Source of the DNA: Cystobacter fuscus
Lineage (GTDB): Bacteria; Myxococcota; Myxococcia; Myxococcales; Myxococcaceae
NCBI RefSeq assembly: GCF_002305875.1
Contig: NZ_CP022098.1
Coordinates: 4,526,001 to 4,590,000 of the forward strand
Direction: 5' to 3'
Length of the DNA stretch: 64,000 bases
In this document: in pieces, positions 12,894 through 51,274 of the stretch
Layout of the letters: every line of letters starts with the position of its first letter
How positions within the stretch are numbered: the first letter of the stretch is position 1
Notes under the pieces: generated by a model
The model's database searches: none
The model's input: the letters and a program-made list of their open reading frames with translations, nothing else
What the model was told of the DNA's origin: nothing
Made by a program: the position numbers and the translations under genes

Positions 12894-12945
12894 AAGCCCC
12901 CTGAACGGGCGTTGACTCGGGACGGGGGCTGGTTACGTTCGCCCC

Positions 12946-13566: not shown

Positions 13567-13704
13567 GCCGTTCGCCGGGAGTGGTTCCTCGAAGGAGTTC
13601 CTCCCGAGAGGGCGGGCGGCTAGGGTGGGTCGTGAGTCCCCCCGCCGCGCGAGTCCGGATTCGCCGGGAAGACGCGGGGCGGGTGGTTGTTCGCTCCTCC
13701 CGAC

Positions 13705-18318: not shown

Positions 18319-18394
<76 letters not shown>

Positions 18395-24797: not shown

Positions 24798-24807
24798 GAG
24801 GAGCGCG

Positions 24808-26073
24808 GTGGAACGTCATTTTTATTGGGTGCGAACTGCTGATGTACCTCAATGGTACATCACGACTCCTGTACCGGCAACGGGCGGAAAGTTCGAGGAG
24901 CCTTGGATGTTCGGGGAAGGGCGCCTCCTTCCGGATCCTGGGCCCATCAAAGCTCCGGTGAGGAACCAGGGCGAGAGGCGCACATTTATGTTCGTCGGCG
25001 TTGAGAGTGTCCCCATCATCAACGAAGCAGTCGCCAATGTTTTCAGGACGCTGGCACCTGATGATGTGCAGCTATTTTCGGTGACGGTGGGCGGCGAGTC
25101 CGAGCAGTACTTCATTGTTAATGCACTCAAATCCATTGACTGCATTGACGAAGTGAACTGCCGGGAAGTCCACCTATATGACCAAGACGACCCTGAACCT
25201 GCGCGCAGAGGGGCTTATCGCTGGATCTACGGCTTGCGAATTGACCCAGCGAAGACTGAAGGTGCGCGTGTCTTCAGGCCGAAGAGGTTCACTCACGCAC
25301 TCATTGTCTCCGAAGAGGTCAAGGCTGCGCTCGAAAGAGTAGGGAATCTGGGGGTTGATTTCGAGCGGGTGACGGGGCCGCATGAGCCGCTGCCACCGCC
25401 GCGCGAGGTTCCAGCTACGCTCAAGCAAGCCCGGGAGGCGAGGGCCGCCGCGTACAGCAAGCTTGGGGAGCTCTCCGAAGATGTCGTCAGACGCATCGTT
25501 CCCACGAGCGGAAACTGGCCTGGTGGTGTTCAGGCATGGCGGGTCATCAAGAGAGGCCAGCGGACCCTATTCGTGAGTGATGGGCTGTCCGACCCCTTTC
25601 CTGACGCGAGCGCGCCGTCCTTGGGATTCGGATTCGAGCTGGCAGTTGAGACGGACGAGGAACTGCCGGGGGACGACGGGTGGCCGTTGGATATGTTGAT
25701 GCGGGTCTCGGATGGCTTTGCCAACTACGCGGACACTCGGAAGCTCCTGGAGACAGGGCTAGCGTTCATAAACTTCTCTGGTAAGGGAATGCCGGAACAG
25801 CTTGTGGTGCCGCCAGATGTCTTCAAGAAGCTCCGGCCGAACGACTGGGTGTCAGAACACGGGATGTCAATGGTGCTGATCGGGTTGGAGCCGCCGACCC
25901 TGCGGACGAGCTTCCCCACGCCCGCCGGTCCAGTGCGCCTCGTTTCCACGATGGCTATGCACTCGAGCGAGATAGTCGCTTACCTGGAGCGCGGAGGAGA
26001 TGAGTTGATTCCCCTCTTCCTGAAGTGCGCCGACATGCCCCTGTCGAGCACGAAGAGGAGTCCGGTTATCTAG
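24808..26073 (+). CDS. Two-domain immunity protein (Imm11-like plus SUFU-like)
   Basis: This 421-residue cytoplasmic protein follows the AHH toxin. The first half (about 1-190) is the same family as the protein at 62412: RIDPAKTEGARVFRP and ALIVSEEVKAALERVG match IDPSKIGDAQVFRT and ALIVSEELKEALERMG, with Imm11/DUF1629 character. The second half (about 200-415) has suppressor-of-fused-like features: LGFGFELAVETDEELPGDDG, WPLDMLMRVSDGFANY and a late VRLVSTMAMHSSEIVAYLER. Each half is a known immunity fold in other bacteria, so this looks like a fused double immunity protein. Codon use is less GC-rich than neighbouring housekeeping genes. Confidence 0.75.
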   Translation: MERHFYWVRTADVPQWYITTPVPATGGKFEEPWMFGEGRLLPDPGPIKAPVRNQGERRTFMFVGVESVPIINEAVANVFRTLAPDDVQLFSVTVGGESEQYFIVNALKSIDCIDEVNCREVHLYDQDDPEPARRGAYRWIYGLRIDPAKTEGARVFRPKRFTHALIVSEEVKAALERVGNLGVDFERVTGPHEPLPPPREVPATLKQAREARAAAYSKLGELSEDVVRRIVPTSGNWPGGVQAWRVIKRGQRTLFVSDGLSDPFPDASAPSLGFGFELAVETDEELPGDDGWPLDMLMRVSDGFANYADTRKLLETGLAFINFSGKGMPEQLVVPPDVFKKLRPNDWVSEHGMSMVLIGLEPPTLRTSFPTPAGPVRLVSTMAMHSSEIVAYLERGGDELIPLFLKCADMPLSSTKRSPVI

Positions 26074-26092
26074 TCAAGACCACTGGCCCCGG

Positions 26093-26390
26093 TTACGTGG
26101 CTCTCCCGCACATTGTGATGAGGTAGGGCCTCTGCGTTGCCAAGAGCTGGTTTCCAACACGCTGGTTCGTTGCTCGGAGGCAGCCGCCGGAGGCGGCAGG
26201 CCCAGGATGAGTCCTCCTGCAATCAGGAGCGCTTTGACGAGTGCCTACAAACCATGTCTGGGTTCTCCGCGAGTTCCTGACGGAGGAATAGGACGCAGCA
26301 ACTCCAGCCCGGTGAAGAAGAGGTGCATGATGCCGTCCAGCGGCCAGTGCTTCATCCGAGTGCGAGTCATGCTCGAGCTGCAATAGAACT
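26093..26390 (-). other. Gene-free stretch with minus-strand coding debris
   Basis: Between the immunity gene and the rhodanese gene there are 375 bases without a convincing gene. On the minus strand one frame reads MKHWPLDGIMHLFFTGLELL (stop about 26251). An overlapping frame reads VKALLIAGGLILGLPPPAAA, a good signal-peptide core, then ends near 26160. These look like pieces of a decayed secreted-protein gene. I see no insertion-sequence ends or transposase motif. Confidence 0.35.
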
Positions 26391-26392
26391 GT

Positions 26393-26421
26393 ATACTAAT
26401 TCCCACTTCGCCTTTTAGTAT
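26393..26421. promoter_or_regulatory. AT-rich dyad upstream of the 24-kb operon
   Basis: A perfect inverted repeat ATACTAA-15-TTAGTAT ends 28 bases before the first gene of the operon. The left arm forms part of a TATACT -10-like hexamer (26392-26397). In GC-rich DNA this AT-rich dyad is conspicuous. It is a candidate promoter/operator for the surface-protein operon. Confidence 0.45.
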
Positions 26422-26448
26422 GAGCCGTGGTCATGAATTTGAGTTACG

Positions 26449-27333
26449 TTGCTTATCGTGACCACGCACGGCATACAGATTCCCTCCTCTGGAGCGCGCA
26501 CCGCAGGGATCGGCCTGTTGGTGGTGGCCGGGCTCTGCCATGCGCAAGGCGCGGGCTCCTCATCCCTGACGTGCCCGGCGGCTCCGCCCCCGAGTGAGCG
26601 GCCCATCGAGAAACACGTGTCGTGCCTCGTGCCGGTGGAGACCGTCCTGCGCCAGCATGAGCAGGGCAAGGTCATGCTCGTGGACGTGCGCGACGCCGAG
26701 TCGTTCAGTCGCTATCGCATTCCGGGGTCGCTCAACATCCCGCTGCACGCCGTGAAGACAAAGGCGTTCCTGCGGCCGGAGTCGATCGTCCTCGTGAATC
26801 AGGGTCATGTCACCGCGGCACTCGAGGTCGGCTGCTCCGAGCTGAAGCGCGCGGGCTTTTCGAACGTCGCCGTCCTGCAGGGAGGACTGCGTGCCTGGCT
26901 CGCGGGCCGTGGCGCGCTGGAAGGAGAGGCACGTTCGGCCCACGACCTCGACCGCCTCATGCCCGCGGAGCTCTTCGCCGAACGCATGAGGACAGACTGG
27001 CTCGTCTTGATCTTCTCGAAGGACCAGCACGCGTCACTGCGCTGCTGGCTCCCGTCGCGCGTCGAGCAGGTGACCGGCAAGAGCGCCCCGGCGATTCGCG
27101 CGATCAAGGTGGCGGTCGACCGGGCGCGACAGGCCGCTCCCGGTCTGCGCGTGCTCATGGCCAGCGACACCGACACCGAGCACGCCATGCTCTCCGCCCT
27201 GATGAAGGAAGCTGGCGTGCAGGACGCGCTGTACCTGGAGTCCGGGCTCGAGGGCTATCGAGAGTTCGTGTCGGATCAGAGCGCAATCTGGGGACGTCAG
27301 GAAAAGACGAGGGCGTCCTCATGCTGCGGCTGA
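26449..27333 (+). CDS. Exported rhodanese-like protein without the catalytic cysteine
   Basis: This 294-residue protein starts at TTG 26449 (GTG 26458 also possible). It has a hydrophobic export segment (AGIGLLVVAGLCHAQG) and a rhodanese-fold domain, about 55-150: VMLVDVRDAESFSRYRIPGS, then a GGLRAWLAGRG ending. At the active-site loop the sequence is LVNQGHVTAAL, so the sulphur-carrying Cys is absent. The C-terminal 120 residues include a second alpha/beta segment (DWLVLIFSKDQHASLRCWLP) and end in CCG. It is first in the giant-protein operon and overlaps the transglutaminase start by 13 bases. Likely a binding or redox accessory, not a sulphurtransferase. Confidence 0.7.
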   Translation: MLIVTTHGIQIPSSGARTAGIGLLVVAGLCHAQGAGSSSLTCPAAPPPSERPIEKHVSCLVPVETVLRQHEQGKVMLVDVRDAESFSRYRIPGSLNIPLHAVKTKAFLRPESIVLVNQGHVTAALEVGCSELKRAGFSNVAVLQGGLRAWLAGRGALEGEARSAHDLDRLMPAELFAERMRTDWLVLIFSKDQHASLRCWLPSRVEQVTGKSAPAIRAIKVAVDRARQAAPGLRVLMASDTDTEHAMLSALMKEAGVQDALYLESGLEGYREFVSDQSAIWGRQEKTRASSCCG

Positions 27334-28220
27334 CCTCGCTCATCGCGATGCTGGCGGCGTTCTTCGTGGGCCTGCCCCGAGTTGTCGCCATGCCCGTGAG
27401 CGAGACTGGCTCACGAGCGCCTGCTGATTACGCCATCCCCAGGCAGCTTCGCTACAGCTTCACGCTTCGCAACACCACGGCGCGGCCAATCACGAAGGTG
27501 GAATTCCTCACGCTCGCGCCGGTGCCGCGGACGTCACACCAGTGGCTCGAGAAGCTCACCGCGACACACCCCTACCGCGTGTCGCGCGATTCGCTCGGCA
27601 ACGAACTCCTCCGCTTCGAGTTCGAGACGCTTCCCCCGTACGCATCGAGGATCATCAGCATCACCGCCGACCTGAAGATGGCGGAGCGCGGCACGGAGGC
27701 GTCCGGCGGCGACGTCGCGCGCTTTACCAGGCCAGAGCGTTACATCGAATCGAGCGACCCTCGGGTGAGTGAGATCGCGCGGGCAGTGCGCGACCCGTCC
27801 GCCCTTCGCACGGTCCGGCAGGCCTATGACTGGGTGGCCGCCAACGTGCAGCCGTCCGACTATGTCCCCGACGATCGTGGTGCGCTCTACCTGCTCGAGC
27901 AGCGCCGGGGAGATTGCACCGAGTTCGCGTACCTGGTGGCGGCGCTCTCCCGAGCGAACCAGGTGCCGGCGAGGCCCATGGGTGGGTACATGCTCCACGG
28001 CAACTCGATCGTCGGGCCGGCGGACTACCACAACTGGGCGGAGGTCCTGGTCGACGGCCGCTGGCTGATCGTGGACGCGCACCAGAAGTCGTTCGCGGAG
28101 CACGAGACCGACTACGTCGCGATGCGGATCATCTCGACCGAGCCGGCGGAGGACGCTCCGGCCGTTGGGTTCAACCGTTACGAGATCAGGACGCCAGGTG
28201 TCGACGTGTCGATGAACTGA
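27321..28220 (+). CDS. Exported transglutaminase-like protease/cross-linker
   Basis: This 299-residue protein has a signal peptide (MLRLTSLIAMLAAFFVGLP) and a beta-rich N-terminal half. A transglutaminase-like core follows with the triad Cys in RRGDCTEFAYL, His in DYHNWAEVLVDG and Asp in WLIVDAH. The family contains cross-linkers, amidases and proteases acting on surface proteins. Its place in front of several giant secreted proteins suggests processing or cross-linking of those products; that is inference. The start overlaps the rhodanese-like gene. Confidence 0.85.
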   Translation: MLRLTSLIAMLAAFFVGLPRVVAMPVSETGSRAPADYAIPRQLRYSFTLRNTTARPITKVEFLTLAPVPRTSHQWLEKLTATHPYRVSRDSLGNELLRFEFETLPPYASRIISITADLKMAERGTEASGGDVARFTRPERYIESSDPRVSEIARAVRDPSALRTVRQAYDWVAANVQPSDYVPDDRGALYLLEQRRGDCTEFAYLVAALSRANQVPARPMGGYMLHGNSIVGPADYHNWAEVLVDGRWLIVDAHQKSFAEHETDYVAMRIISTEPAEDAPAVGFNRYEIRTPGVDVSMN

Positions 28221-28248
28221 AGTGAACTGAAGTAGGGGGGAGTCGTCG

Positions 28249-31200
28249 ATGAGGCCTCTGGGGGGAAGGGGTCTGAATGCAGGTGGGGGCCTCCTCGGCC
28301 TGCTGGCTTTGCTTTGTTCTGGGATTGCGCTGGCGCTCGACGTTTCTGGTCCGATCAACTCCACCACCACCTGGTCGGCCGCGCAGAGCCCGTACCGGGT
28401 CGTCGGCAGCGTCACCGTCCAGGGCGGCGCGACCCTGGTCATCGAGCCGGGCGTGACCGTGCTCATGCAGCCGGGGACGAGCCTGAGCGTCTCGTCGGGC
28501 ACCCTGCGCGCGCGCGGTACCGCCGTCCTGCCCATCGTGTTCACGGCCGAGTCCGACACGGCCGGAGGGTCGCCGGTCCCCGGCAACTGGGGCGTGCTGC
28601 GGTTCGCGAACGGGACGAATGATTCGCTCACGGTCCTGGAGTACGTCGAGGTCCGCTACGGACAGGGCGTCGTCATCGAGTCAGCGGCGCCCACGCTCAA
28701 CCACGTCTGGCTGATCAACAACAGCGGGCCGGCCGTGACCGCCGACCTCGCCTCGTCTCCGGTCGGCGTTGGGCTGCGGGCGACGGGCAACGGGGTTGAC
28801 GGCGTGCTGCTGCCGCCGGGGGAGATCACGGGGGCGGTGGTGTGGGGGTTGCGCGGCATCCCCTATGTCGTGAGCCAGGGTCTGGTGTCGGTAGGTCGCG
28901 CGCCAGCCGTGACCTCGGTGGCGCCGTCGCGGATCGCCCAGGGACAGACGGTGACGATGACGGTGAGCGGGACGCGGCTCGGCGGCGTGGAGCGCGTGCG
29001 CTTCGACAACGCCGCCCTCTCCGGAACCGTGCTCCCGGGCGGCGGCGACACGTCCTTCAGCGTCGACGTGACCGCCTCGGCGCAGGCGGCGACGGGTTCC
29101 ACCGCGCTCGAGGTGTTGGTCGCCGCGGGCCACGCTCGGCTCGAGGGCGCGGTGACGGCCGTCCCGCCGAGGCCGCCGATCGTCGTGGACGGCATGACGC
29201 CGGGCTCGCTCCGCCGCGGCGAGAGCAAGTCCTTCCAGGCGACCGGGCAGAACCTGGCGGGGGCGAACGTCACCACCACCGCCACCGGCCTCACCCTCGG
29301 CAACGTCTCGTCCAGCGCCACGTCGTTGAGCTTCACCCTGGCGGCGTCGGCGAGCGCGGCGTTGGGAGACCAGACGCTGACCTTCACGAACCCAGCCTCG
29401 GCCTCGGGCAGTGCCACGGCGGTGGTGACCGTGGTCGATCTGCCACCGACGGTGGTGACGAGCCCGGCCCCGGTCGCGGTGCCGCCGGACAACGTCGCCC
29501 GTCTTATCAAGCTGCGGCTCTCACGGCCCGACGTGGTCAATCACACCTTCGCGGTGAGCATCGGCAACACGAACATCGCCACGGTCTCACCGGCGGACGT
29601 CGCCATCTCCGCGGGTCAGACCGAGGCGAACCTGCTGGTCACCGGCCGGGTGTTGGGTCAGACGGTGCTCACCCTCGTGTCGCCGACCCTGGGTACGGTG
29701 ACCACGCCGGTCTTCGTCACCACCGAGTTCTCCGGGCTCAACACCAGCTTCGCGCTCCCCCTCGGGGTCGTGGTGACGCCCTCTCCGCTCCCGTCCTCGT
29801 CGGCGGTTGAGGTGGTCTCCAACCTGGTGGGCGTCGCGCTGGGCGATCACCTCGCCGACGTCAGCCCCCGGGTGTTCACCATCGGCACCGGCCCCGTGCC
29901 GCTCGTGATCTCCGGTAGCGGCCTGGCCTCGGTCACCGAGGTGAGCCTTTTGCCCGGGGATGGAGTGACCCTGGGCGCTCCCGCGGCGAGCCCGGACGGC
30001 AGCCAGCTCACGGTTCCGGTGACGGTCGCCGCCGACGCGCCGCTCACTGTCCGCCGGCTCGTCCTCTCCGGTGGCGGCCCCCTTCTCCCCATGCGGCCAG
30101 ACGCCGACCGGATCAAGATCGTGCGGCCGGTCCCGATCATCGACTGGATCTCCCCGCTGTTCGTGCAGACCGGCTCCAGCGGCGTCGGCCTCACCGTGGT
30201 CGGCCGCAACTTCCAGGACCTTCAGGGCGTGGGCATCATGCCCAACGACGGGATCTCGGTCGGCTCACCAGTCGTGACCCCGGATGGCACCCGTCTCACG
30301 GTAAACTTCAGCGTCGCGGCGGACGCGACGCTCGGGCCGCGGGTGGTGACGGTCTCCACGCTCGGCGGAACGTCTCCCACGATCCCATCGGCCGCCAACA
30401 CCCTCACGGTGGTCCAAGGCACGGCACAGGACATCACGCCGGTGGCCGCGGCGTCGCTTGGCGTGGTGCTCGACCAGGTGAGCCCGCCAGCCTCCCAGAC
30501 GTTCGGCGTGTGGCCGTCGAACGTGGGAGTGATCTTCGGGAGCGCGGTGACGTCGATCAGCCCGAAGGCGGGTGAGATTGGCTCGAACGTCACGCTTTCG
30601 CTCCAGGGCGCCGGGCTCGGTGGCGTCACGGCCGTGCAGCTCAGCCCCTCGACGGGCCTCACCGTGGGGACGCCGCAGCTCGCGCCCGATGGCAACTCCC
30701 TGACCGTGAGCCTGGCGATCGCGGCCGACGCGCCCCAGACGATGCGCACCGTGCAGGTGCTCGCGGGTAGCCAGCGGATCGACTTCGTGTCGGTGGCGGA
30801 CGCGCTCTTCCGCGTCACCCCACCGCCGCCCCGCATCGACTGGATCAGCCCGCTGTCGGTGCAGATCGGCGCCGCCCCCACCACGCTCACCATCGCTGGC
30901 GCCAATCTTCAGGACGCGTCGCGAGTCAGTGTCCTCCCGCCGGACGGGATGATGCTCTCCGCGCCGAGCACCAACGCCGCTGGTACGACCATCACGGTCA
31001 CCATCGCGGCCGCCGCGGGCGCGGCGACGGGGCCGCGCGTCGTGACCCTCACCACCCCGGCCGGTGAGACTCCCAGCACACCCGGCGCGGCCAACACGCT
31101 CACCGTGGCGTCGACTGCCGGGACGAGCTTCGGGCCTTTCGCGACGTCGCTGGGCGTGACCCTCCAGGAACAGGTCACGCCGTCGCCGGTGCCGTACGGC

Positions 31201-31881
31201 CCGCTCCTGTCGCCCGCGGTGGGTGTGGATGTCACGGTCGAGGCGCCGACGACCGGCACGGCCCAACTCGTGACCGGTGCGCTGGTGGGCGTGGCCTTCG
31301 GCCCCACGGCGCAGGCGCTCTCGCCCGCGGGCGTCCTCGCCGGTCAGTCCGCCACGATCACGATCTCCGGAGCGAGCCTCGATGCCGTCACCTCGGTCGC
31401 CGTTGTCCCTTCCACGGGGCTGACGCTCGGCGCGTTCACCGTGAGCGCCGACGGCACGCAGCTCTCCATCCCCGTCACCGCGGACGCCGCGGCCCCCGCT
31501 GACGCGCGGCGGTTCGTCCTGTCGGGCGCCTCCGGCTCGGTGCAGTTCAGCCAGCCAGCGGCGAACCGACTCGTCATCGTGCCGGCCCTCCCGGTCATCA
31601 GCTCCATCGAGCCGATCCTCGGCACCCAGGGGCAGGCGGGCTCGTTGCTGATCCGCGCGACGAACACGCAGTACGCGACCGGCGTGACGATCACGCCCTC
31701 TACCGGCGTGACGTTCAGTCCCACCTTCACGGTCGATGCCGCCCAGGGGCGGCTCACCATCGCCTTCAGCATCGCGCCCGACGCGCCCGTTGGCCCGCGC
31801 GTGATCCAGGTGGTCACACCAGCGGGGGCGACCCCCGCCGAGCCGTCACCCGTCAACACCTTCACCATTCGGAGTCCCTGA
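28249..31881 (+). CDS. Large secreted protein with beta-helix start and TIG-like tandem repeats
   Basis: This 1210-residue protein has a signal peptide (LLGLLALLCSGIALA). A beta-helix-like opening (about 30-190: GGATLVIEPGVTVLMQPGTS, HVWLINNSGPAV) precedes a long array of IPT/TIG-type Ig modules. From about residue 551 the protein is built of large repeats starting VPLVISGSGLASVTEV (551), VTLSLQGAGLGGVTAV (781) and ATITISGASLDAVTSV (1035). Each contains a second module (IDWISPLFVQ, IDWISPLSVQ, ISSIEPILGT). The third copy ends early. No anchor or sorting signal is visible. Likely an extracellular adhesin or scaffold exported with the neighbouring RHS protein. Confidence 0.75.
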   Translation: MRPLGGRGLNAGGGLLGLLALLCSGIALALDVSGPINSTTTWSAAQSPYRVVGSVTVQGGATLVIEPGVTVLMQPGTSLSVSSGTLRARGTAVLPIVFTAESDTAGGSPVPGNWGVLRFANGTNDSLTVLEYVEVRYGQGVVIESAAPTLNHVWLINNSGPAVTADLASSPVGVGLRATGNGVDGVLLPPGEITGAVVWGLRGIPYVVSQGLVSVGRAPAVTSVAPSRIAQGQTVTMTVSGTRLGGVERVRFDNAALSGTVLPGGGDTSFSVDVTASAQAATGSTALEVLVAAGHARLEGAVTAVPPRPPIVVDGMTPGSLRRGESKSFQATGQNLAGANVTTTATGLTLGNVSSSATSLSFTLAASASAALGDQTLTFTNPASASGSATAVVTVVDLPPTVVTSPAPVAVPPDNVARLIKLRLSRPDVVNHTFAVSIGNTNIATVSPADVAISAGQTEANLLVTGRVLGQTVLTLVSPTLGTVTTPVFVTTEFSGLNTSFALPLGVVVTPSPLPSSSAVEVVSNLVGVALGDHLADVSPRVFTIGTGPVPLVISGSGLASVTEVSLLPGDGVTLGAPAASPDGSQLTVPVTVAADAPLTVRRLVLSGGGPLLPMRPDADRIKIVRPVPIIDWISPLFVQTGSSGVGLTVVGRNFQDLQGVGIMPNDGISVGSPVVTPDGTRLTVNFSVAADATLGPRVVTVSTLGGTSPTIPSAANTLTVVQGTAQDITPVAAASLGVVLDQVSPPASQTFGVWPSNVGVIFGSAVTSISPKAGEIGSNVTLSLQGAGLGGVTAVQLSPSTGLTVGTPQLAPDGNSLTVSLAIAADAPQTMRTVQVLAGSQRIDFVSVADALFRVTPPPPRIDWISPLSVQIGAAPTTLTIAGANLQDASRVSVLPPDGMMLSAPSTNAAGTTITVTIAAAAGAATGPRVVTLTTPAGETPSTPGAANTLTVASTAGTSFGPFATSLGVTLQEQVTPSPVPYGPLLSPAVGVDVTVEAPTTGTAQLVTGALVGVAFGPTAQALSPAGVLAGQSATITISGASLDAVTSVAVVPSTGLTLGAFTVSADGTQLSIPVTADAAAPADARRFVLSGASGSVQFSQPAANRLVIVPALPVISSIEPILGTQGQAGSLLIRATNTQYATGVTITPSTGVTFSPTFTVDAAQGRLTIAFSIAPDAPVGPRVIQVVTPAGATPAEPSPVNTFTIRSP

Positions 31882-31898
31882 ACCATGCGGAGAGCGAC

Positions 31899-33374
31899 AT
31901 GAGCAGTCAACTCAAGCAGATGGGCCGGGTGATGGCATCCATGGTGCTGGTCATCTCGGGGACGGCGATGGCCTTCAACAGCGGCAGCACCGGCGCGGAT
32001 GGGGCGTTCAGCCCGACGGTGAGCACGCAGGTGCAGCTCCCGGAGAACGGCATCTTCAACTTCACGACCGTGAACATCCCCAGCGGTGTCACCGTGACGT
32101 TCAAGAGAAACACCGCCAACACACCGATTGTCATCCTCGCTACCGGCAACGTCACCATCGCGGGAGCGATCGATGTCAGTGGCTCCAGCTCGGCCAACGT
32201 CGGCGCCGCGGGCGATGGCAACCTGGGCGATGACGGGATCCCCGGCCGCGGTGGGCCCGGCGGTCAGGACGGCGGACGTGGAGGTCCGGCCGGAGCGGCG
32301 GCGACCTCGCGCGGTGGCAATGGGCTCGGGCCCGGAGGAGGCTTGGGAGGGGCCCTGGGCGGGACCGACACTGGCTGCTACTACACTAATGCGACGGGCG
32401 GCGGCGGTGCTGGCTTCGGTAACGGGGGCTCGAATGCCGTCGCGTTCGCTAGTGGGAACACGACGTATTCGCGGGGCGGCGTCGCCTACGGATCGAGCCA
32501 GCTCCTGCCGTTGATCGGCGGCTCGGGTGGCGGCGGCGGTGGCGGCAACACCGGGCTCGGTGGGTCGGGCGGCGGTGGTGGTGGTGGCGCGATCCTCATC
32601 GCCTCCTCCGAGACGCTCAATGTCACTGGTTCGATCCTGGCGAATGGAGGCGCTTCGGGCGGGACCGCCGGGGGCGAATCGGGCGGGACGGGCGGAGGGG
32701 GCAGCGGAGGCGCCATCCGATTGCTGGCGACGACCCTCTCCGGCAACGGCACGCTCAGCGCCGCCGCCGGTGCCGCCGCCGGGAACGCGAACAGCGGCTG
32801 TTTCAATGGCGGGAGCGGAGCGGTGGGTCGCATCCGGCTGGAGGCGGAGACCCTTACCCGGACGGCCGGCAGCACGCCGCCGTTCCCCGCGGCGACCGCG
32901 CCGACCACGGTGTTCGTCGCCGGGCTGCCCACGCTCCGCATCACCAGCGTCGCGGGCGTGAGCGCGCCCGCCGTGCCGACGGGCAACGCCGACATCGTGC
33001 TGCCCGCGAACACCCCGAACCCGGTCACGGTCACGTTCACGACGACGGGGGTGCCAGTCGGAAACACCGTCACCCTCACTGTGGTCCCCGCCGCGGCCGC
33101 ATCGGAGAGCGCCGTGAGCCCGGCGTTGTCCGGCTCCACCGACAGCGCTACCACCAGTGTCAACATCAACCTGCCGAGCGGTCCGAGTGTGCTGCAGGCC
33201 ACGACCTCGTACACCGTGGTCGCGGCGCTCGGCCGCGAGCTGGGCACGCGCTACGCGAACGGCGAGCAGGTGGAGCGGGTGACGCTAATCGCCAGCCTCC
33301 AGGGGCCGCCAGCGGTCATGCTCACGACGGTGTCTGGCAAGGAGTACCGGGTCGCGGCGCAGGCCCGGGACTAG
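31899..33374 (+). CDS. Secreted glycine-rich protein
   Basis: This 491-residue protein has a signal peptide (ASMVLVISGTAMA) and an opening strand region (PSGVTVTFKRNTANTPIVIL). A long Gly-rich segment spans about residues 100-300, with runs such as GGSGGGGGGG and GGTGGGGSGGAIRLLA. The periodic GNVTIAGAIDVSGS / ETLNVTGSILANGG pattern suggests a beta-helix with glycine loops. A C-terminal Ig-like half follows. It lies 17 bases after the TIG protein and 9 before the next gene, so it is operonic. No catalytic residues are seen; a matrix or adhesin role is a guess. Confidence 0.7.
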   Translation: MSSQLKQMGRVMASMVLVISGTAMAFNSGSTGADGAFSPTVSTQVQLPENGIFNFTTVNIPSGVTVTFKRNTANTPIVILATGNVTIAGAIDVSGSSSANVGAAGDGNLGDDGIPGRGGPGGQDGGRGGPAGAAATSRGGNGLGPGGGLGGALGGTDTGCYYTNATGGGGAGFGNGGSNAVAFASGNTTYSRGGVAYGSSQLLPLIGGSGGGGGGGNTGLGGSGGGGGGGAILIASSETLNVTGSILANGGASGGTAGGESGGTGGGGSGGAIRLLATTLSGNGTLSAAAGAAAGNANSGCFNGGSGAVGRIRLEAETLTRTAGSTPPFPAATAPTTVFVAGLPTLRITSVAGVSAPAVPTGNADIVLPANTPNPVTVTFTTTGVPVGNTVTLTVVPAAAASESAVSPALSGSTDSATTSVNINLPSGPSVLQATTSYTVVAALGRELGTRYANGEQVERVTLIASLQGPPAVMLTTVSGKEYRVAAQARD

Positions 33375-33383
33375 TCACGACCC

Positions 33384-44233
<10,850 letters not shown>

Positions 44234-44238
44234 ACTCC

Positions 44239-44655
44239 ATGACTTCACGACTATCATGCGACGAGAACGGTTTTTTGAAGGGATTCCCCTACCACGATGG
44301 CTTTCTCGATGGCGTGCTCGCGGGTGGAACAGAAGTGCATCTCGCACTTCGCTCCAGTCGCAGCGAGCGACGTGTTTTGACGTTACGGCGTGTTGTGATG
44401 TTCCATGTCGAGGGCTTTCGTGAGGGAAACATCGTGCTGAACTTGCGGCTATTGCGCGCCGACCAAGTGGCGAGTGACGCGGAGGTTCGACGCATCCTGG
44501 CGGACCGGCTTTTTTTTGACCCAGCGAAATTGGGTGCGGATTCCTCGGTGTTCCTGCTGGAGGCTTCATTTGGTGCTGAAGTCGTCGCGATTTGCGGAGA
44601 GGTCGAGATCAGCGAAGTTGGAGTAACGCTGGCACTGTCACGCGGTGCCTCCTGA
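44239..44655 (+). CDS. Probable immunity protein for the RHS toxin
   Basis: This 138-residue cytoplasmic protein starts five bases after the RHS stop. It opens GFLKGFPYHDGFLDGVLAGG, a beta-sandwich-like start seen in small partners of RHS genes. RRVVMFHVEGFREGNIVLNL follows, with a strand-rich end (EVEISEVGVTLALS). It has no signal peptide and is less GC-rich than the giant genes around it. Position, size and location fit a cognate immunity protein. I cannot assign a named family. A 10-bp inverted repeat begins directly after its stop. Confidence 0.6.
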   Translation: MTSRLSCDENGFLKGFPYHDGFLDGVLAGGTEVHLALRSSRSERRVLTLRRVVMFHVEGFREGNIVLNLRLLRADQVASDAEVRRILADRLFFDPAKLGADSSVFLLEASFGAEVVAICGEVEISEVGVTLALSRGAS

Positions 44656-44743
44656 GGTGGACCCCAACGGAATCGGGGCAACTTCACGTCGGCTGGGATG
44701 CAAATAACGGAGCCCTGAAACTAGTCCTAACACGGGGTCCACC
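44656..44743. repeat. Perfect 10-bp inverted repeat bracketing the immunity/PKD junction
   Basis: GGTGGACCCC at 44656-44665 and GGGGTCCACC at 44734-44743 are exact reverse complements, 68 bases apart. The left arm starts at the base after the immunity stop codon. Possible readings are an mRNA stem-loop separating the operon end from the next gene, or an insertion boundary. Confidence 0.55.
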
Positions 44744-44773
44744 CAGTAGAGGGGGTGGGTGAGGCGGAGTACG

Positions 44774-47700
44774 ATGACAATAGCCGGGACATTCCGTTGC
44801 TCATCGGTGGGGTCGATGGCGATTCGCCTGTTCGCCTGCGCTTGCTTCTTGTTTGCGGACACCGCCCTGGCCCTCGACACCATCTGCGCGCGGGTCAGGC
44901 TCCAGATCGACCAGAAGCTCACCCTCGAGCGCCAGGGCTTCGACGCGATGATGCGCATCACCAATGCGCTCGACACCGTGGAGCTGAAGCAGGTGCGCGT
45001 GGACGTACTGTTCACGGACGAGGCCGGGGCGCCGGTCCGGGCCACCTCCGATCCGAACGACACCTCCGCCAGCTTCTTCATCCGCATCGACACCATTGGG
45101 GGCATCTCGGACGTGAACGGGAACGGCACGGTCGCTCCGGCCAGCGTGGCCGAGGTGCACTGGCTCATCATCCCCAGCCCGGGCGCGGGCGGGACGGTGC
45201 CGGGGGGCAAGATCTACTTCGTCGGCGCCAACCTCAGCTACACCGTCGGCGGCGAGGCACAGACAATGAAGGTGTCGCCCGACACGGTCACCGTCCAGCC
45301 GATGCCGCGGCTGACCCTCGATTATTTCCTCACCCAGGAGGTCTTCGCCGACGACCCGTTCACGCCGCAGATCGAGCCGCAGGTGCCGTTCACCCTCGGG
45401 GTCCGCGTTCGCAACGGCGGCGCGGCGGCGGCCCGCAACGTCAAGATCGAATCCGCGCAGCCGAAGATCGTCGAGAACATCCAGGGCCTGCTCGTCGGCT
45501 TCCAGATCACCGGCAGCTACGTGAACGACTCACCCACCAGCCCCAGCCTCCTCGCCGAGCTGGGTAACATCGCCCCCTCCGCCGCGAGCACCGGCCGCTG
45601 GGTGATGACGACGACGCTCTCCGGCAAGTTCGTCGAGTTCAATGCCTCGTTCACGCACTCCGACGCGCTGGGCGGCGCACTGACCTCGCTCATCGACGCC
45701 ACCCACGCCCACCTGCTCGTCCGCGACGTGAGGGTCGATCTCCCCGGCCGTGACTCCGTGCGCGACTTCCTCGCTCGCGACGACGACGTGTTGCGCGTCT
45801 ACGAGTCGACGGGTGTGGACACGATGGTGACTGATCAATCGGAATCCTCCACGCTGTCCCCGTCCGGCGGTGACGCGACCTACCAGCTACTGGCGCCCCA
45901 GACCGCTGGCTTCATGTACGTGCGGCTCCCGGATCCCTCCGGGGGCACGAAGCAGCTCGGGCCGGTGACCCGTTCGGACGGGAAGGTGATTCCGCCGGAG
46001 AACGTCTGGTTGTCCAGGTCGCGTGCCACGCCTGGTGGCCCGTTCAGCTACTGGATCAACCTGTTCGACGCCAACACTCCCGGCACCTACACCCTGGTCC
46101 TGATGGCGCTGGCGGGGACACCGCGCCCGCCGGTGCTCCAGTCCATCCCGGACCATGTCGTCCGAGAAGGCGAGCGGGTGGAGTTCCTGGTCGAGGCCTC
46201 CGATCCGGACGGCACGATTCCGTCCATCACGACGTCACAGCTCCCGGTGGGGGCTCGGTTCACGCCGCAGGCTCCGTCGAGCGGCACGGCCCGCGGGTCG
46301 TTCGAGTGGACGCCAGCCACCGGCCAGTCGGGCCAGTATCCCATCACCTTCACCGCTTCCGACGGCAGCCTGACCGCGACGAGGACGTCGACGATCACGG
46401 TCACCACGCTGGTTCCGCCATCGGGCCCCGATACCCCGGTCATCTCCCGCCCCGCGGTGGCCTCGACGGTGACGGCGCCGCAGCCCGAGCTGGCCGTCGC
46501 CCCGACCGCGAACCCGCTCGACACCGCCGCCAGCTACCAGTTCGAGCTCTACCGGGACGCCTCGTACACGGACCGGATCGCCCAGAGCCCGGTCGTGCCG
46601 AGGACTTCGCTCGGGGCGGCGTGGCAGGTGCCAGCGCCGCTCGCCGACAACACCCTGTACCACTGGCGCGTGCGCGCCTTCGACGGCACCACGTACAGCA
46701 CCTGGACCCTCGGGCGCTTCACCGTCAACACCGCGAACGACGCCCCGTCCATCCCGGCGATCGCGGCGCCCGCTCCCGGCGGGCACGTGGACACCCCCTC
46801 GCCCACGCTGTCGATCTCCAACAGCACCGACCCCGACGGCGAGCCGGTCGTCTACCGCTTCGAGGTCTACGCCGACGCCGCGCTGAGCCAGAAGCTGCGC
46901 GAGTTCTCCAACGTCGCCGCCGGCGCCGACGGCGTCACCCACGTGGCGGTCGCGCCACCGCTGGCCGACCAGACGACGTACCACTGGCGCGCCTTCGCGA
47001 TCGACCCGCACGGCGCGATCACGGCGTCGCCGGCCGCCAGCTTCTCGATCGACGCCAGCCACCCGGCCCCCGGGGTGCCCGCGATCCTCAGCCCGGTCGT
47101 GGGGACGGTGGTGACCAGCGCCTCCGTCCCACTCCGGGTCACCCACGGCGCGCACGAGCCGGGCGTGGCCGTGAGCTACTTCTTCGAGCTCGACCGCGAC
47201 CGGGGCTTCGCGAGCTCGTCCCTCGTGCACTCGGGCGCGGTCCCGGAGGGGCAGGACGCGACCAGCTTCACCGTCACCGGCCTCGCGGAGAACGCGCGGT
47301 ACTTCTGGCGCGCGAAGAGCAGCGACGGCGTGGCGGAGAGCGCTTGGGTGTACGGCGACTTCTTCGTCGATCAGGCCAATGATCCACCCGGCGTGCCGAC
47401 GCCGCTCAACCCGGGGCAGGGCGCCTTCGTCTCGACCCGCGAGCCACTCCTGGAACTCGGGGCCTCGAGCGACCCGGACGGCGACACCGTCGTGTATCGC
47501 CTGGAGATCTACTCGGACGAGGCGCTGTCCAGCCGCGTGGCCGAGAAGCTGACGAACACCCGTACCTGGGTGGTGCAGCCGCCGCTCGTGGACGAGGCGA
47601 CCTACTTCTGGCGCGTGCGCGCCGAGGACACGCGCGGCGGTGCCAGTGCCTGGAGCGCCGTGCAGCGCTTCTCAGTCCACACCGGCACGGTCCGGCCGCC

Positions 47701-50638
47701 GGGGCTCGTGCTGGTGGAGCCGGCCGGTATCGTGACCGTGAGTGGCTCCTCGGTGCCGATCGCCTGGGAGATCGATGACCCCACGCACGCGTCGACGCTG
47801 GCGCTGTTCTCCGACCGAGATGCTCAGGGCGAGGACGGGACCCTCATCGTGCGCGACCTCGCCCAGGATCCGGCCACCACCACCGGCCGCTACACCTGGA
47901 ACGTCTCCACGCTTCTGCCCGGCACGTATTACGTGTACGCGAGCGCCACCAATCGCGCGGGGACGACGACCCGGTACGCCGCGGGCGCCTACGTGATCCC
48001 CGTCCCGCAGCCACGCGGTGGCGTCACCCTCACTCCGACGACCCAACTGGAGACGACCGAGGCTGGCGGAACCGCGACCTTCACCGTGGCGCTCACCAGT
48101 GCTCCGCGGAGCGAGGTGACCCTCGGCTTCACGGCGAGCCAGCCGAACGAGGCGCGCCTCGCGCCGTTCGCGCTCACCTTCACTCCGACGAACTGGAATG
48201 TCCCTCGCGCGGTCACCGTGACCGGGCTCCCGGATTGCGTGGACGATGGCGACCAGCCGTACCAGGTCGTCCCGGGCCGGGCCAGCAGCGCCGATCCCGA
48301 CTACAACGGTGTCCAAGCCGCGCCCCTGGCCTTCGTGAACCGGGGCTCGACGTCGGGCTGCGGGGAGAACCAGGCGCCCCAGGCGAATGCCGGCCCGGAC
48401 CAGACGGTCGGCTCGGGGAGCACCGTCGTACTGGCTGGCTCTGGCACCGACGTGGATGGCACGGTGGTCGCCTACCACTGGGCGCAGACCTCCGGTCCGT
48501 CGGTGACGCTCTCCAACGCCAGCATCGCGGCGCCTCACTTCACCGCGCCGTCGCCCGCGGCCGACACGGTGCTCGGGTTCGAGCTGACCATTACCGACGA
48601 CGACGGCGCGACTGGCCGTGACAGCGTCGCCGTCACCGTCCGCGCGCCCTCGAATCAGCCGCCGGTGGCCAACGCCGGTCCGGACCAGACGGTGACGACC
48701 GGCGCGCTCGTCACCCTCGCGGGTTCCGGCATCGACGTGGACGGCACGATCGTCACCTACGCGTGGGCGCAGGTCTCCGGCCCCGCGGTGACGCTCTCGG
48801 GTGAGACCAGCGCGACCGCGACCTTCTCCGCGCCGGCGGTGAGCACTCCCGCCAGCCTGGGCTTCACTCTCACCGTCACCGACGATCACGGCGCGAGCGG
48901 TACCGCCTCGGTCACGGTGACGGTCCAGCCCCTTCTCAACCAGCCGCCCACCGCCAACGCCGGGGCCGACCAGACCGCGATTCCCGGCACCCCGGTCACG
49001 CTCACCGGCAGCGCCACCGATCCGGACGGCACCGTGGTTGCCCTCCTCTGGACCCAGACGGCGGGGCCCACGGTGACGCTCATCGATGCCAGCACCGCCA
49101 CGGCGCGCTTCACGGCCCCGGTGGTGTCCGCCAGCACCGTGCTCACCTTCCAACTCACCGTGACGGACAACCAGGGCGCGAGCGCCAGCGCCTCGGTCTC
49201 GATCACGGTCGTTCCGAACCAGCCGCCCGTGGTCAGTGCCGGCACCGCTCAGACGGTGAATGAGCGGACGCTGGTGACGCTCGCCGGTGCCGCCTCCGAC
49301 GCCGACGGCGCGATCGCCTCCGTGCAGTGGACCCAGACGGCGGGTCCCTCGGTGGCACTCACCAACGCGAACCTCCTCACCGCCCACTTCACGGCGCCCG
49401 CGGCCAGCACCGACACCGTGCTCACGTTCACGTTGACCGCGACCGACAACCTGGGCGCCAGCAGCAGCGCGACGACGCACGTCACGATCCACCACGTCAA
49501 TCAACCGCCCACCGCCAATGCCGGGCCCAGCCAGACCGTGAACGAGAACACGTTGGTTACCCTGAGCGGAGCCGGTTCCGATCCCGACGGCAGCGTCGTC
49601 TCGTACGCGTGGGTCCAGACGACTGGCCACCCGGTGGCGCTGGTGAATGCCCGGACCGCGGTGGCGACGTTCACCTCGCCGCAGATCAATGGGCCGTCGA
49701 CGTTGACGTTCTCGCTGACCGTCACCGACAACGAGGGGGCGACGGGCACCGCGCACATCAACGTCCAGGTGCTGGACAACATCCAGAACGAGCTGCCGCG
49801 GGTGAACGCCGGCCCAAGCCAGATGGTCGACGAGGGAACGCCAGTCATCCTCACCGGCGGCGCCACCGACTCCGACGGCACCATCACTTCCCTCCAGTGG
49901 ACCCAGACCGCGGGGCCGGTGGTCGCGCTCTCCGGCGCCCAGTCCGCGGTGGCCCGCTTCACCGCGCCGGGGGTGTCCGCTCGGACGGTGCTCAAGTTCC
50001 GACTCACGGCGACCGACAACGGCGGCGCCAGTGACTCCAGCGACACCGAGGTCGTCGTGCGCGACGTCCTCGCCTCGCCGGTGGTGGACGCCGGGCCTGA
50101 TTTCGCGGTCAACGAGGGCGCGCGCGTCAACATCCAGGGCCGCGCGAACCAGAGCGGAGTCACCTACCGGTGGACCCTGGGCCCCGGTCCAGCGGTCAAG
50201 CTGAATGGCGCCAACACGGCGGTCGTGAGCTTTACCGCGCCGGCTGTGACCGCCGACTCCGTGCTGACGCTGAAGTTGACGGTTCTGGGGCAGACGGGCG
50301 CGGCGGGGTTCGACACGGTCAATGTCACCATCCGCAACGTCAACAAGCCGCCAGTGGCCGAGGTGGAGCGGCTCGAGGGCTTCGACGAGCGCACCCTCGT
50401 CACGTTGAGTGGCCGTGGCTCCAAGGACCCCGACGGAAGGATCCGCTCCTACCTCTGGGTCCAGACGAGTGGTCCGGCCGTGGCGCTGAGCAGTCCCCGG
50501 AGCGCGACGCCGAGCTTCACGGCGCCCGAGGTCACGGGAGAGACGACGTTGTCCTTCCGGGTGATCGTGACCGATGACGAGGGCTCGACCGGGAGCTCCG
50601 TCGTGAACGTCATGGTGCGCGACGTCCAGAGGCGGTGA
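44774..50638 (+). CDS. 1954-residue secreted FN3/PKD repeat protein
   Basis: The signal peptide is best seen at MAIRLFACACFLFADTALA, which also permits a start at 44816; ATG 44774 has GGAG upstream. After a unique N-terminal part (about 20-455) comes an Ig-like domain (QSIPDHVVREGERVEFLVEA) and then four FN3-like modules (YHWRVRAFDGTTYSTW; YHWRAFAIDPHGA; YFWRAKSSDGVAES; YFWRVRAEDTRGGA). A Calx-like stretch (FTVALTSAPRSEVTLGFTAS) follows. Last are eight PKD/REJ-type modules of about 93 residues (NQAPQANAGPDQTV and variants). There is no anchor. It is the last gene of the co-directional block and probably mediates extracellular binding. Confidence 0.8.
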   Translation: MTIAGTFRCSSVGSMAIRLFACACFLFADTALALDTICARVRLQIDQKLTLERQGFDAMMRITNALDTVELKQVRVDVLFTDEAGAPVRATSDPNDTSASFFIRIDTIGGISDVNGNGTVAPASVAEVHWLIIPSPGAGGTVPGGKIYFVGANLSYTVGGEAQTMKVSPDTVTVQPMPRLTLDYFLTQEVFADDPFTPQIEPQVPFTLGVRVRNGGAAAARNVKIESAQPKIVENIQGLLVGFQITGSYVNDSPTSPSLLAELGNIAPSAASTGRWVMTTTLSGKFVEFNASFTHSDALGGALTSLIDATHAHLLVRDVRVDLPGRDSVRDFLARDDDVLRVYESTGVDTMVTDQSESSTLSPSGGDATYQLLAPQTAGFMYVRLPDPSGGTKQLGPVTRSDGKVIPPENVWLSRSRATPGGPFSYWINLFDANTPGTYTLVLMALAGTPRPPVLQSIPDHVVREGERVEFLVEASDPDGTIPSITTSQLPVGARFTPQAPSSGTARGSFEWTPATGQSGQYPITFTASDGSLTATRTSTITVTTLVPPSGPDTPVISRPAVASTVTAPQPELAVAPTANPLDTAASYQFELYRDASYTDRIAQSPVVPRTSLGAAWQVPAPLADNTLYHWRVRAFDGTTYSTWTLGRFTVNTANDAPSIPAIAAPAPGGHVDTPSPTLSISNSTDPDGEPVVYRFEVYADAALSQKLREFSNVAAGADGVTHVAVAPPLADQTTYHWRAFAIDPHGAITASPAASFSIDASHPAPGVPAILSPVVGTVVTSASVPLRVTHGAHEPGVAVSYFFELDRDRGFASSSLVHSGAVPEGQDATSFTVTGLAENARYFWRAKSSDGVAESAWVYGDFFVDQANDPPGVPTPLNPGQGAFVSTREPLLELGASSDPDGDTVVYRLEIYSDEALSSRVAEKLTNTRTWVVQPPLVDEATYFWRVRAEDTRGGASAWSAVQRFSVHTGTVRPPGLVLVEPAGIVTVSGSSVPIAWEIDDPTHASTLALFSDRDAQGEDGTLIVRDLAQDPATTTGRYTWNVSTLLPGTYYVYASATNRAGTTTRYAAGAYVIPVPQPRGGVTLTPTTQLETTEAGGTATFTVALTSAPRSEVTLGFTASQPNEARLAPFALTFTPTNWNVPRAVTVTGLPDCVDDGDQPYQVVPGRASSADPDYNGVQAAPLAFVNRGSTSGCGENQAPQANAGPDQTVGSGSTVVLAGSGTDVDGTVVAYHWAQTSGPSVTLSNASIAAPHFTAPSPAADTVLGFELTITDDDGATGRDSVAVTVRAPSNQPPVANAGPDQTVTTGALVTLAGSGIDVDGTIVTYAWAQVSGPAVTLSGETSATATFSAPAVSTPASLGFTLTVTDDHGASGTASVTVTVQPLLNQPPTANAGADQTAIPGTPVTLTGSATDPDGTVVALLWTQTAGPTVTLIDASTATARFTAPVVSASTVLTFQLTVTDNQGASASASVSITVVPNQPPVVSAGTAQTVNERTLVTLAGAASDADGAIASVQWTQTAGPSVALTNANLLTAHFTAPAASTDTVLTFTLTATDNLGASSSATTHVTIHHVNQPPTANAGPSQTVNENTLVTLSGAGSDPDGSVVSYAWVQTTGHPVALVNARTAVATFTSPQINGPSTLTFSLTVTDNEGATGTAHINVQVLDNIQNELPRVNAGPSQMVDEGTPVILTGGATDSDGTITSLQWTQTAGPVVALSGAQSAVARFTAPGVSARTVLKFRLTATDNGGASDSSDTEVVVRDVLASPVVDAGPDFAVNEGARVNIQGRANQSGVTYRWTLGPGPAVKLNGANTAVVSFTAPAVTADSVLTLKLTVLGQTGAAGFDTVNVTIRNVNKPPVAEVERLEGFDERTLVTLSGRGSKDPDGRIRSYLWVQTSGPAVALSSPRSATPSFTAPEVTGETTLSFRVIVTDDEGSTGSSVVNVMVRDVQRR
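48368..50632 (+). repeat. Eight tandem PKD-domain coding repeats (about 280 bp each)
   Basis: Units begin at NQAPQANAGPDQ, NQPPVANAGPDQ, NQPPTANAGADQ, NQPPVVSAGTAQ, NQPPTANAGPSQ, NELPRVNAGPSQ, SPVVDAGPDFA and NKPPVAEVERLE. The first five are most alike at DNA level; the last two have diverged. The array can expand or contract by recombination. Confidence 0.85.
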
Positions 50639-50803
50639 GCCGAGCGCCGTTGCTTGGCTGTTCCTGATCAGGTGGCTCGCAGCGCTTCGGGTGGGTGCGT
50701 GGGCTTTCTCTCCCGTCTGGCTAGAACAGGACCGGAATCCGGGTGAACGGACTCCGTACGGGCACGGCGGAGTCCATGGCTCAAGATCGCGGCACTCGCT
50801 GAG

Positions 50804-51274
50804 CTAGACGGTTTTGTCTGGCAAGAGCGTGCGCAGCAACTCGTCGTCGGGGCCGAGCGGGCGCCAGCCAGGAGGAGGCGGCGTGGAACGGAGTGATTCT
50901 CTTGCCCGTCTGACGCGCTCCTCATGGGTTTCTGGGGTGAACGCAGCCCAAGAACCGAGCGCCATGGCAACCTTGAAACGGTTGGCGTCGTCCATCACGT
51001 CTGGCCAGCCTTCGGGGAGACATTCGGAAAGCTCGCGAACGAGCACATCGCGCACGAATCGTGTGACCTGATGGCTTCGCTCCGCCTCGGCGCGCAGCTC
51101 GCTCAACACCTGCACCCCGGCGATGTCATCCTCGCCAAGCTCATCCGCCAGCGCCACCAGTGGAACGGCAGGGCGGGCATTCGCGAAGGCGGTGAGCGAC
51201 TCATAACCGAGTTCGCGGACTCGCTCGTACAGGCGGACCTTCCAGTTACCTCGCCAGGCATGTCCGCTGCTCAT
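50804..51274 (-). CDS. Putative immunity protein for the DUF2380 toxin
   Basis: This 156-residue soluble helical protein begins SSGHAWRGNWKVRLYERV. It has VALADELGEDDIAGVQVL, RLVRELSECLPEGWPDVMDD-like helices and a C-terminal PPPPGWRPLGPDDELLRTLL. I recall close relatives beside SitA-type DUF2380 toxins in other myxobacteria. ATG 51274 overlaps the toxin stop as ATGA. It is intact over the usual length, although the toxin gene is truncated. It would bind the toxin in the cytoplasm and protect the cell. I do not name a Pfam family. Confidence 0.65.
   Translation of the reverse strand: MSSGHAWRGNWKVRLYERVRELGYESLTAFANARPAVPLVALADELGEDDIAGVQVLSELRAEAERSHQVTRFVRDVLVRELSECLPEGWPDVMDDANRFKVAMALGSWAAFTPETHEERVRRARESLRSTPPPPGWRPLGPDDELLRTLLPDKTV

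Follow-up and report, generated by a model that had tools for sequence, protein, structure and literature searches.

Two described groups of Rhs toxins lie close to the locus considered here. In Myxococcus xanthus, the Rhs4 and Rhs5 proteins act in kin discrimination; they are large, carry a signal sequence and a strain-specific C-terminal toxin, are independent of the type VI secretion system (T6SS), and are presumed to be located on the cell surface (PMC10433427, in part). A class of polymorphic toxins exported by Sec and the type II secretion system (T2SS), which combine a signal peptide, Rhs repeats, a HINT domain, an exchangeable tip and immunity genes, was defined by Zhang 2012 (PMC3482391, in part). 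The section of PMC10433427 cited here states no route by which large signal-peptide Rhs toxins, the T6SS-independent myxobacterial ones included, cross the outer membrane. Here we analyze computationally an eight-gene operon of Cystobacter fuscus, located at positions 26449-50638 of a 64,000-nucleotide stretch of DNA (the window; positions 4,526,001 to 4,590,000 of contig NZ_CP022098.1, assembly GCF_002305875.1). The gene set belongs with the Rhs polymorphic toxin systems, and we favor, with moderate confidence, the reading that it encodes a surface-displayed polymorphic Rhs contact-toxin system with Sec- and T2SS-type export, stalk proteins, and a periplasmic cysteine enzyme.

Organization of the operon

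The operon consists of eight tightly packed open reading frames (ORFs), all on the plus strand of a host genome represented by a single contig of 12.35 Mb. The ORF coordinates agree with the packed co-directional genes of the original prediction, which had been made from the letters of the window, and its domain assignments were borne out by Pfam, which gave matches to Rhodanese, Transglut_core, TIG, Big_7, CarboxypepD_reg, RHS_repeat, RHS, PT-HINT, and K319L-like_PKD. The features are listed below in window positions.

26449..27333, plus strand: rhodanese-like protein, putatively exported; 294 aa; PF00581 Rhodanese; conserved C-terminal Cys
27321..28220, plus strand: transglutaminase-like (papain-like) cysteine enzyme, putatively exported; 299 aa; PF01841 Transglut_core, 70 bits; C199-H237-D252
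28249..31881, plus strand: TIG/Ig-like repeat protein, putatively secreted; 1210 aa; TIG and related Ig-like Pfam matches
31899..33374, plus strand: Gly-rich protein, putatively secreted; 491 aa; no Pfam match at E 0.01
33384..39638, plus strand: giant protein, proposed stalk; 2084 aa; Big_7, FN3-like, CARDB-like, and CnaB/CarboxypepD_reg-like matches, Gly-rich tail
39587..44233, plus strand: Rhs cocoon protein with signal-like N-terminus; 1548 aa; RHS_repeat (285 bits), RHS, PT-HINT
43499..43885, plus strand: pretoxin HINT domain within the Rhs gene (residues 1305-1433); PF07591, 44 bits versus a cut-off of 27.7
43883..44233, plus strand: variable toxin tip, about 115 residues long and without a family match; GC content at third codon positions (GC3) low
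44239..44655, plus strand: putative immunity protein; 138 aa; 5 bases past the Rhs gene; no Pfam match at E 0.01; GC3 0.59
44759..50638, plus strand: PKD giant; 1959 aa; K319L-like_PKD; N-terminal region (44867-46138, about 424 residues) strongly conserved

The successive junctions are an overlap of 13 bases, gaps of 28, 17, and 9 bases, an overlap of 52 bases between the giant and Rhs genes, and gaps of 5 and 103 bases; the last gap becomes 118 bases, as originally given, if the PKD giant starts at the ATG at 44774. From this packing we infer a single transcript. Simple scans, which do not cover other promoter types, detected no promoter- or terminator-like patterns in 25900-26600, and the two terminator-like patterns found in 44200-51300 are below the 2.8 expected by chance.

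Most of the operon genes form a conserved module

Relatives of the locus were collected in a scan in which each species was represented by a single genome and three aligned giants served as the query. At least 80 loci matched, of which 31 strong ones were kept (L065-L095; the weakest 29% identical, and some short fragments), and 49 of the 80 (L096-L144), where the giant match was partial or of low identity, were left uncounted. The window, three plasmid loci, and the 31 genome loci make up the 35 locus sets described below. The 2084-residue giant therefore has long matches in at least 31 other genome loci and on three plasmids, and is present in all 35 sets by selection.

The data showed that an Rhs gene is present in 31 of the 35 sets (lowest score 39 bits, for a contig-end fragment), and that the four sets lacking it (L069, L077, L092, L094) stop inside the giant at contig ends. 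In every one of the 31 sets that continue past the giant, Rhs either comes next after the giant or forms one protein with it. The fusion occurs in eight sets (L060, L063, L076, L078, L082, L088, L091, L095), and an unfused Rhs gene begins at most 100 bases from the giant end, save in L065 (637 bases). A homologue of the PKD giant was found in 27 sets, the rhodanese-like gene in 26, and the transglutaminase-like gene in 24, the last two counts not being independent, because the profiles were built mostly from the same loci. Among the 11 sets without the transglutaminase-like gene, seven are short contigs (L069, L076, L077, L092, L094, G202, G209). TIG and Gly-rich homologues were found in 13 and 12 sets, respectively, with the window counted, and they are confined to the window's own branch and an adjoining clade, hence they are not general members of the module.

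Most of the module genes are linked in Beta- and Gammaproteobacteria, in Desulfatitalea, and in one Planctomycetota genome, and both the gene set and its order recur in distant bacteria, which is more than chance. The conserved module comprises the giant and Rhs genes together with those for the PKD giant and the rhodanese-like and transglutaminase-like proteins. Of the five genes whose co-occurrence the original prediction suggested searching for, the transglutaminase-like, giant, and Rhs genes are general members of the module and the TIG and Gly-rich genes are not, and the outcome that was to speak against the operon, homologous operons lacking most of its members, is not what was found for the larger members.

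The toxin tip of the Rhs protein is exchanged

The RHS_repeat, RHS, and PT-HINT matches of the window Rhs protein are all above the Pfam cut-off, with HINT placed before the tip. The protein has sequence relatives among Rhs cocoons with solved structures, for example Tse5 and Tse15, and by visual inspection it begins with what looks like a Sec signal. The Rhs ends were scanned by Pfam in 18 of the 30 relatives having Rhs. Tips above the cut-off were found in six of the 18 (Tox-REase-9, LHH, AHH, Tae4, NucA/NucB, and phospholipase A2), two further tips had nuclease matches below the cut-off, and ten were without a clear toxin family.

When closely related Rhs proteins were compared, the tip was found exchanged in three of four pairs, with identity dropping sharply at the tip. 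Per 100 residues, the giants of Mitsuaria and Pelomonas share 97-100% identity; for the Rhs bodies the value is 82-100%, while the last Rhs blocks are only 33% and 7% identical, and the ORFs next after Rhs have different starts (by eye). The giants of two Hydrogenophaga are 68-93% identical, and their Rhs proteins 72-96%, falling to 20% at the tip, with the first Rhs block at 27%. In one Methylomonas pair the Rhs end falls to 48%, 15%, and 9%, and the proteins also differ in their N-terminal repeats and middle region (40-74%); the second Methylomonas pair is alike throughout, tip included. These data show that variation of the Rhs tip is uncoupled from that of the backbone, and that tips are exchanged between related backbones. 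Since the tips are those of polymorphic toxins, antagonism is the likely function.

The composition of the window genes follows the same pattern. The GC3 of the Rhs gene falls from 0.92-0.93 (40037-40936) to 0.63 (43637-44086), and that of the immunity gene is 0.59, versus 0.91-0.92 in the giant and PKD genes and 0.84-0.92 across the six operon genes other than these two, which is as expected of an exchanged cassette. The position of the 138-aa protein matches that of small post-Rhs ORFs in relatives: a same-strand ORF of 70-400 aa begins at most 15 bases past the Rhs end in 16 of the 22 loci listed, and none within 500 bases in three of the 22, as counted without a chance control. A single weak match of the immunity protein (48 bits) is on a Novosphingobium plasmid.

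Other known kinds of toxin were considered for the operon and rejected. A T6SS Rhs effector is not consistent with the absence of any PAAR/VgrG Pfam match at E 0.01 and with the signal-like N-terminus; the SpvB/TcdB N-terminal domains, which we take as markers of the Tc toxin BC component, are absent from the Rhs and giant proteins at the same Pfam threshold; and for contact-dependent inhibition (CDI) by two-partner secretion (TPS), no TPS/FhaB or CdiB-like domain was matched by Pfam in any of the eight proteins at E 0.01.

Some relatives encode a T2SS-like cassette beside the module

On the Eleftheria terrae plasmid the genes for TIG, the Gly-rich homologue, the giant, Rhs, an ankyrin protein, and a second giant, which is a homologue of the window PKD giant (1059 bits), are followed in the same direction by a cassette of GspG, GspF, GspE, three unnamed genes, a secretin, and three small pseudopilin-like genes, and then by rhodanese and transglutaminase. 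The secretin contains TPR and C-terminal cohesin domains, and two of the three pseudopilin-like genes have N_methyl. The assembly ATPase, platform protein, secretin, and pilin-like subunits together characterize the type IV filament superfamily, and the Pfam matches of the cassette (T2SSE, T2SSF, Secretin, T2SSG, N_methyl) are parts of this kind. GspG, with 175 bits, exceeds the NCBIfam T2SS cut-off of 88.85, while the ATPase GspE, the platform protein GspF, and the secretin are below both the T2SS and the type IV pilus cut-offs. Because only GspG reaches its cut-off, the cassette is a non-canonical superfamily member rather than a canonical T2SS. No GspC match was found in it, and of the unnamed platform proteins the first had no PDB match and the second a weak one to PilO (E 0.04).

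The Eleftheria secretin was searched for in 27 genomes, which were the host and 26 of the 31 loci (L069, L076, L077, L092, and L094 were left out). A close homologue (E at most 1e-199) was found in 15 of them; the best match in the host was 69 bits. In 12 of the 15 it lies on the contig of the giant, in 11 cases 14.7-21.1 kb downstream of it on the same strand, and in G196 in divergent orientation. The other three secretins are on separate contigs (G195, G198, G199): in G195 and G199 both pieces break off inside the second giant, where the contig ends or close to it, as would be seen for a broken locus, and the contig in G198 starts inside the cassette. With Eleftheria, the cassette is thus present in 16 relatives, demonstrably at the same locus in 13, and these relatives belong to a beta/gammaproteobacterial clade. 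The downstream order recurs with gaps, 13 sets having GspG at 100 bits or more, and 13 the first two platform genes at 30 bits or more; two Xanthomonadales cassette loci (L158, L159) are without the transglutaminase.

A further association was seen in Motiliproteus (L168, in G212; 3325-14706), where a second Rhs gene, whose N-terminus looks similar by eye, adjoins a gspC-D-E-F operon, which starts about 1.4 kb past it and whose D, E, and F products are above the T2SS cut-offs, with C just below; the two could lie close together by chance. Above the curated cut-offs the host has a single GspD and a single GspE, encoded next to each other 1.1 Mb from the operon, as part of a canonical T2SS. The signal-like N-termini imply Sec, and the linked cassette in relatives, together with the Motiliproteus gsp operon, points to T2SS-type export. 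By analogy, the relatives' own adjoining machine suggests how the giant toxins may exit the cell.

Two further arrangements were observed near such genes. In Mitsuaria (L161, 3-13036) another Rhs gene immediately precedes a third T2SS-like cassette, a more distant one; this suggests a broader Rhs-cassette link. In both L068 and L087, a second and diverged set of secretin and pseudopilin genes (1-3302) lies just upstream of TIG.

The machine could alternatively build a pilus- or pseudopilus-like fiber carrying the giant and Rhs proteins at its tip, without secreting them. That GspE, GspF, and the secretin are under the curated cut-offs of both systems, and that three small pseudopilin-like genes follow the secretin, would fit such a fiber, and the Kil Tad pilus of Myxococcus, which has exchangeable tips, offers a precedent (PMC12075869, in part). 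However, the major subunit passes the GspG cut-off of T2SS, the window giant and Rhs proteins had no pilin match by Pfam and look Sec-exported by eye, and there are no pilin genes within the window operon. We therefore regard a fiber as unlikely, and secretion of the giant and Rhs proteins as the better account.

The putative cysteine enzyme and its proposed rhodanese-like partner

The residues Cys199, His237, and Asp252 (window numbering) of the transglutaminase-like protein are invariant in all 23 aligned sequences, therefore these proteins, judged by sequence, are probably active. The only solved relative found was 3isr, a putative cysteine protease. The window protein matched PF01841 alone at E 0.01, and Peptidase_C93 (PF06035), the domain of the LapG family, was absent.

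Rhodanese enzymes carry a catalytic Cys in the active-site loop. In the rhodanese-like proteins such a residue was found, by eye, at the active-loop position in none of the 25 aligned sequences, the window included, so that this protein is probably no enzyme; Asp79 and Arg81 are invariant, and the C-terminal Cys is kept in 24 of the 25. The rhodanese-like protein may instead be a partner or scaffold. Of the two proteins that the original prediction took as enzymes that may process or cross-link surface proteins, the first has an intact triad and may do either, and the second is probably not an enzyme.

The repeat proteins

Ig-like, PKD, or TIG repeats account for most of the coding length of the operon. 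The N-terminal region of the PKD giant, with 46-61% identity to the window in 20 homologues, is the most conserved among the stretches aligned; its structure model is all-beta (predicted local distance difference test score, pLDDT, 83.5) and had no specific structural relative. The model of the giant C-terminus is bead-like (predicted template modeling score, pTM, 0.54), with a CnaB-type domain near the C-terminus and teneurins among its weak matches. In Methylomonas (L063, 17222-20416) a free-standing cohesin-domain protein and an Ig-like protein adjoin the fused giant-Rhs gene, and the cohesin-secretin was not found nearby.

This abundance of repeats and the conservation of the PKD N-terminal region would be consistent with a system serving chiefly adhesion or matrix formation (biofilm, prey or substrate binding), with the toxin tip as an accessory, and in Pseudomonas a periplasmic protease, LapG, does control a giant adhesin (PMC3032545, in part). 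On the other hand, Rhs adjoins or is fused to the giant in all 31 of the sets mentioned above, and the Mitsuaria and Pelomonas tips differ behind nearly identical giants, which is a mark of antagonism. A primarily adhesive role appears less probable still than a fiber, and the contact-toxin reading is preferred to both.

Distribution and history

No close copy of the operon was seen in the host's group: the best non-self match of the transglutaminase-like protein in 195 genomes of the phylum was 58 bits (up to 12 candidates scored per genome), and that of the giant in 59 relatives was 93 bits, over residues 315-548 only (up to seven candidates scored per genome). Plasmid relatives of the transglutaminase-like protein, with 36-41% identity over 82-88% of the length, were found in Methylomonas koyamae (two plasmids) and E. 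terrae; a fourth plasmid record (Cupriavidus, coverage at least 80%) scored 68 bits against the later family profile and was accompanied by no other gene of the module within 12 kb. Identity of the giant reaches 47.5% (96% of the length covered) in Eleftheria and about 43% (82% covered) in Methylomonas; in the latter a single protein of about 4,660 residues comprises both giant and Rhs.

In a midpoint-rooted tree of the 35 giants the window is sister, with support of 100, to a clade in which all 16 cassette-bearing loci fall, together with L081, which has no cassette, and L069, one of the loci left out of the secretin search. The cassette label changes twice on this tree (seven rows unlabeled), and none of 500 shuffles gave a number as low. 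It follows that the cassette was either gained after the window lineage split off or lost from that lineage. The giant is rare, being found in only G195 among this Variovorax genome and 100 relatives (at most four candidates scored per genome), where transglutaminase matches at E 1e-15 occur in 49 of the 101 genomes and exceed 68 bits only in G195 (329 bits). The patchy spread and the plasmid copies point to horizontal transfer.

The neighborhood of the operon contains several other features. Directly upstream, at 23199-26073, are a SitA5-family polymorphic toxin gene (281 bits, NCBIfam) and a 421-aa gene without an NCBIfam match, perhaps its immunity partner. The SitA5 match, with others to myxo-type families, fits a myxobacterial host. 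A short lipoprotein-like ORF at 61852-62412, the start of which resembles by eye that of the SitA5-type gene, is perhaps a Sit-like toxin or fragment. A tRNA-Thr (18319-18394) lies 8 kb upstream of the operon, and GC content dips at 24001-26000, a possible island edge. A 1249-aa open frame on the minus strand (33375-37124), antisense to the giant, is probably a GC-rich shadow frame.

A model for contact antagonism

In the model that we propose, Sec would carry the operon proteins into the periplasm, and a T2SS-type machine, dedicated in the cassette-bearing relatives and the resident T2SS in the host of the window, would take them across the outer membrane. The giant together with the TIG, Gly-rich, and PKD proteins could serve as a stalk or surface scaffold for the Rhs cocoon, and the periplasmic transglutaminase-like cysteine enzyme, with its probably catalytically dead rhodanese-like partner, may trim or join the surface proteins. 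Upon contact, the Rhs/HINT part would free the tip into the neighboring cell, and the small gene after Rhs would protect the producer. Both export and killing are what we infer for these proteins. More specifically, the locus may represent a previously undescribed contact-antagonism system, in which a dedicated T2SS-like machine with a cohesin-secretin exports the Rhs toxin and its set of giant stalk proteins, the cysteine enzyme and the dead rhodanese assemble or release them, and the window carries a form that lacks a machine of its own and relies on the resident T2SS; on this fuller proposal the evidence leaves us evenly balanced.

Several observations weigh against the contact-toxin reading. 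The window operon has no secretion genes, and no cassette homologue was found among the window ORFs; a close secretin homologue was also absent in 11 of the 26 other genomes searched. In L160 and L162 related cassettes occur within 20 kb of sequence that contains no Rhs homologue, so that the machine is not exclusive to Rhs. The tip and the immunity protein of the window match no known family. The transglutaminase-like gene was absent in G217 across the 42 kb examined, and in G211, G215, and G219 in the part examined, one side of which was incomplete. The locus sets were picked by the giant, which makes the giant-based counts conditional, and several loci are near-copies (three Methylomonas; Mitsuaria/Pelomonas). 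Furthermore, Zhang 2012 lists "Transglutaminase" under proteases for the Rhs toxins Ntox10 and Ntox13 (PMC3482391, in part), so that linking a transglutaminase to Rhs toxins is not entirely new.

A chance or functionally mixed cluster of separately expressed genes is highly improbable: the 103-base gap before the PKD gene and the lack of TIG and Gly-rich genes in many relatives would fit it, but it is in the main refuted by the conserved linkage of most of the same genes in the Beta- and Gammaproteobacteria, Desulfatitalea, and the Planctomycetota genome.

Comparison with known systems

The original prediction did not recognize the combination as described, and no description of this gene set was found in the literature searched, a scope outside which most subscription papers and all bioRxiv preprints fall. 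Among the toxin systems, T6SS Rhs effectors such as Tse5 and Tse15 have the Rhs cocoon core in common with the window protein, which differs in its lack of PAAR/VgrG and in its signal-like N-terminus. The Kil Tad pilus of Myxococcus is likewise a machine for contact killing with variable tips, but it is of the Tad type, its tips are minor pilins, and no Rhs is named in the cited part of the paper (PMC12075869). In the LapG-LapA system a periplasmic cysteine protease, "transglutaminase-like" in the wording of the cited part of PMC3032545, acts on a giant surface protein, as is proposed here; LapA, however, uses type I secretion and LapG is controlled by LapD (PMC3032545, in part), while the window enzyme matches PF01841 only. 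By this analogy, LapG would be the closest precedent for function, and not a family relative.

The cassette of the relatives resembles T2SS in that its GspG meets the curated model and its GspE, GspF, and secretin are homologous, and it differs in the TPR and C-terminal cohesin domains of the secretin, in having no GspC match, in its unplaced platform proteins, and in its absence from the window operon. For the Sec/T2SS class, Table 1 of Zhang 2012 has "-" for signature neighborhood genes, whereas secretion cassettes are neighbors of the toxin genes in the relatives described here; the transglutaminase domains fused to some Rhs toxins were called inactive in the same source (PMC3482391, in part), in contrast to the separate gene with an intact triad seen here. 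The locus also brings to Rhs toxin systems a free-standing transglutaminase-like protein whose active site is intact. The M. xanthus Rhs4 and Rhs5 account gives, in the section cited, no export machine, companion giants, transglutaminase, or rhodanese genes (PMC10433427), whereas here the companions are co-encoded and a T2SS-like cassette accompanies them in relatives. The linkage of Rhs toxins to a T2SS-like machine, conserved over many genera, offers a testable export route.
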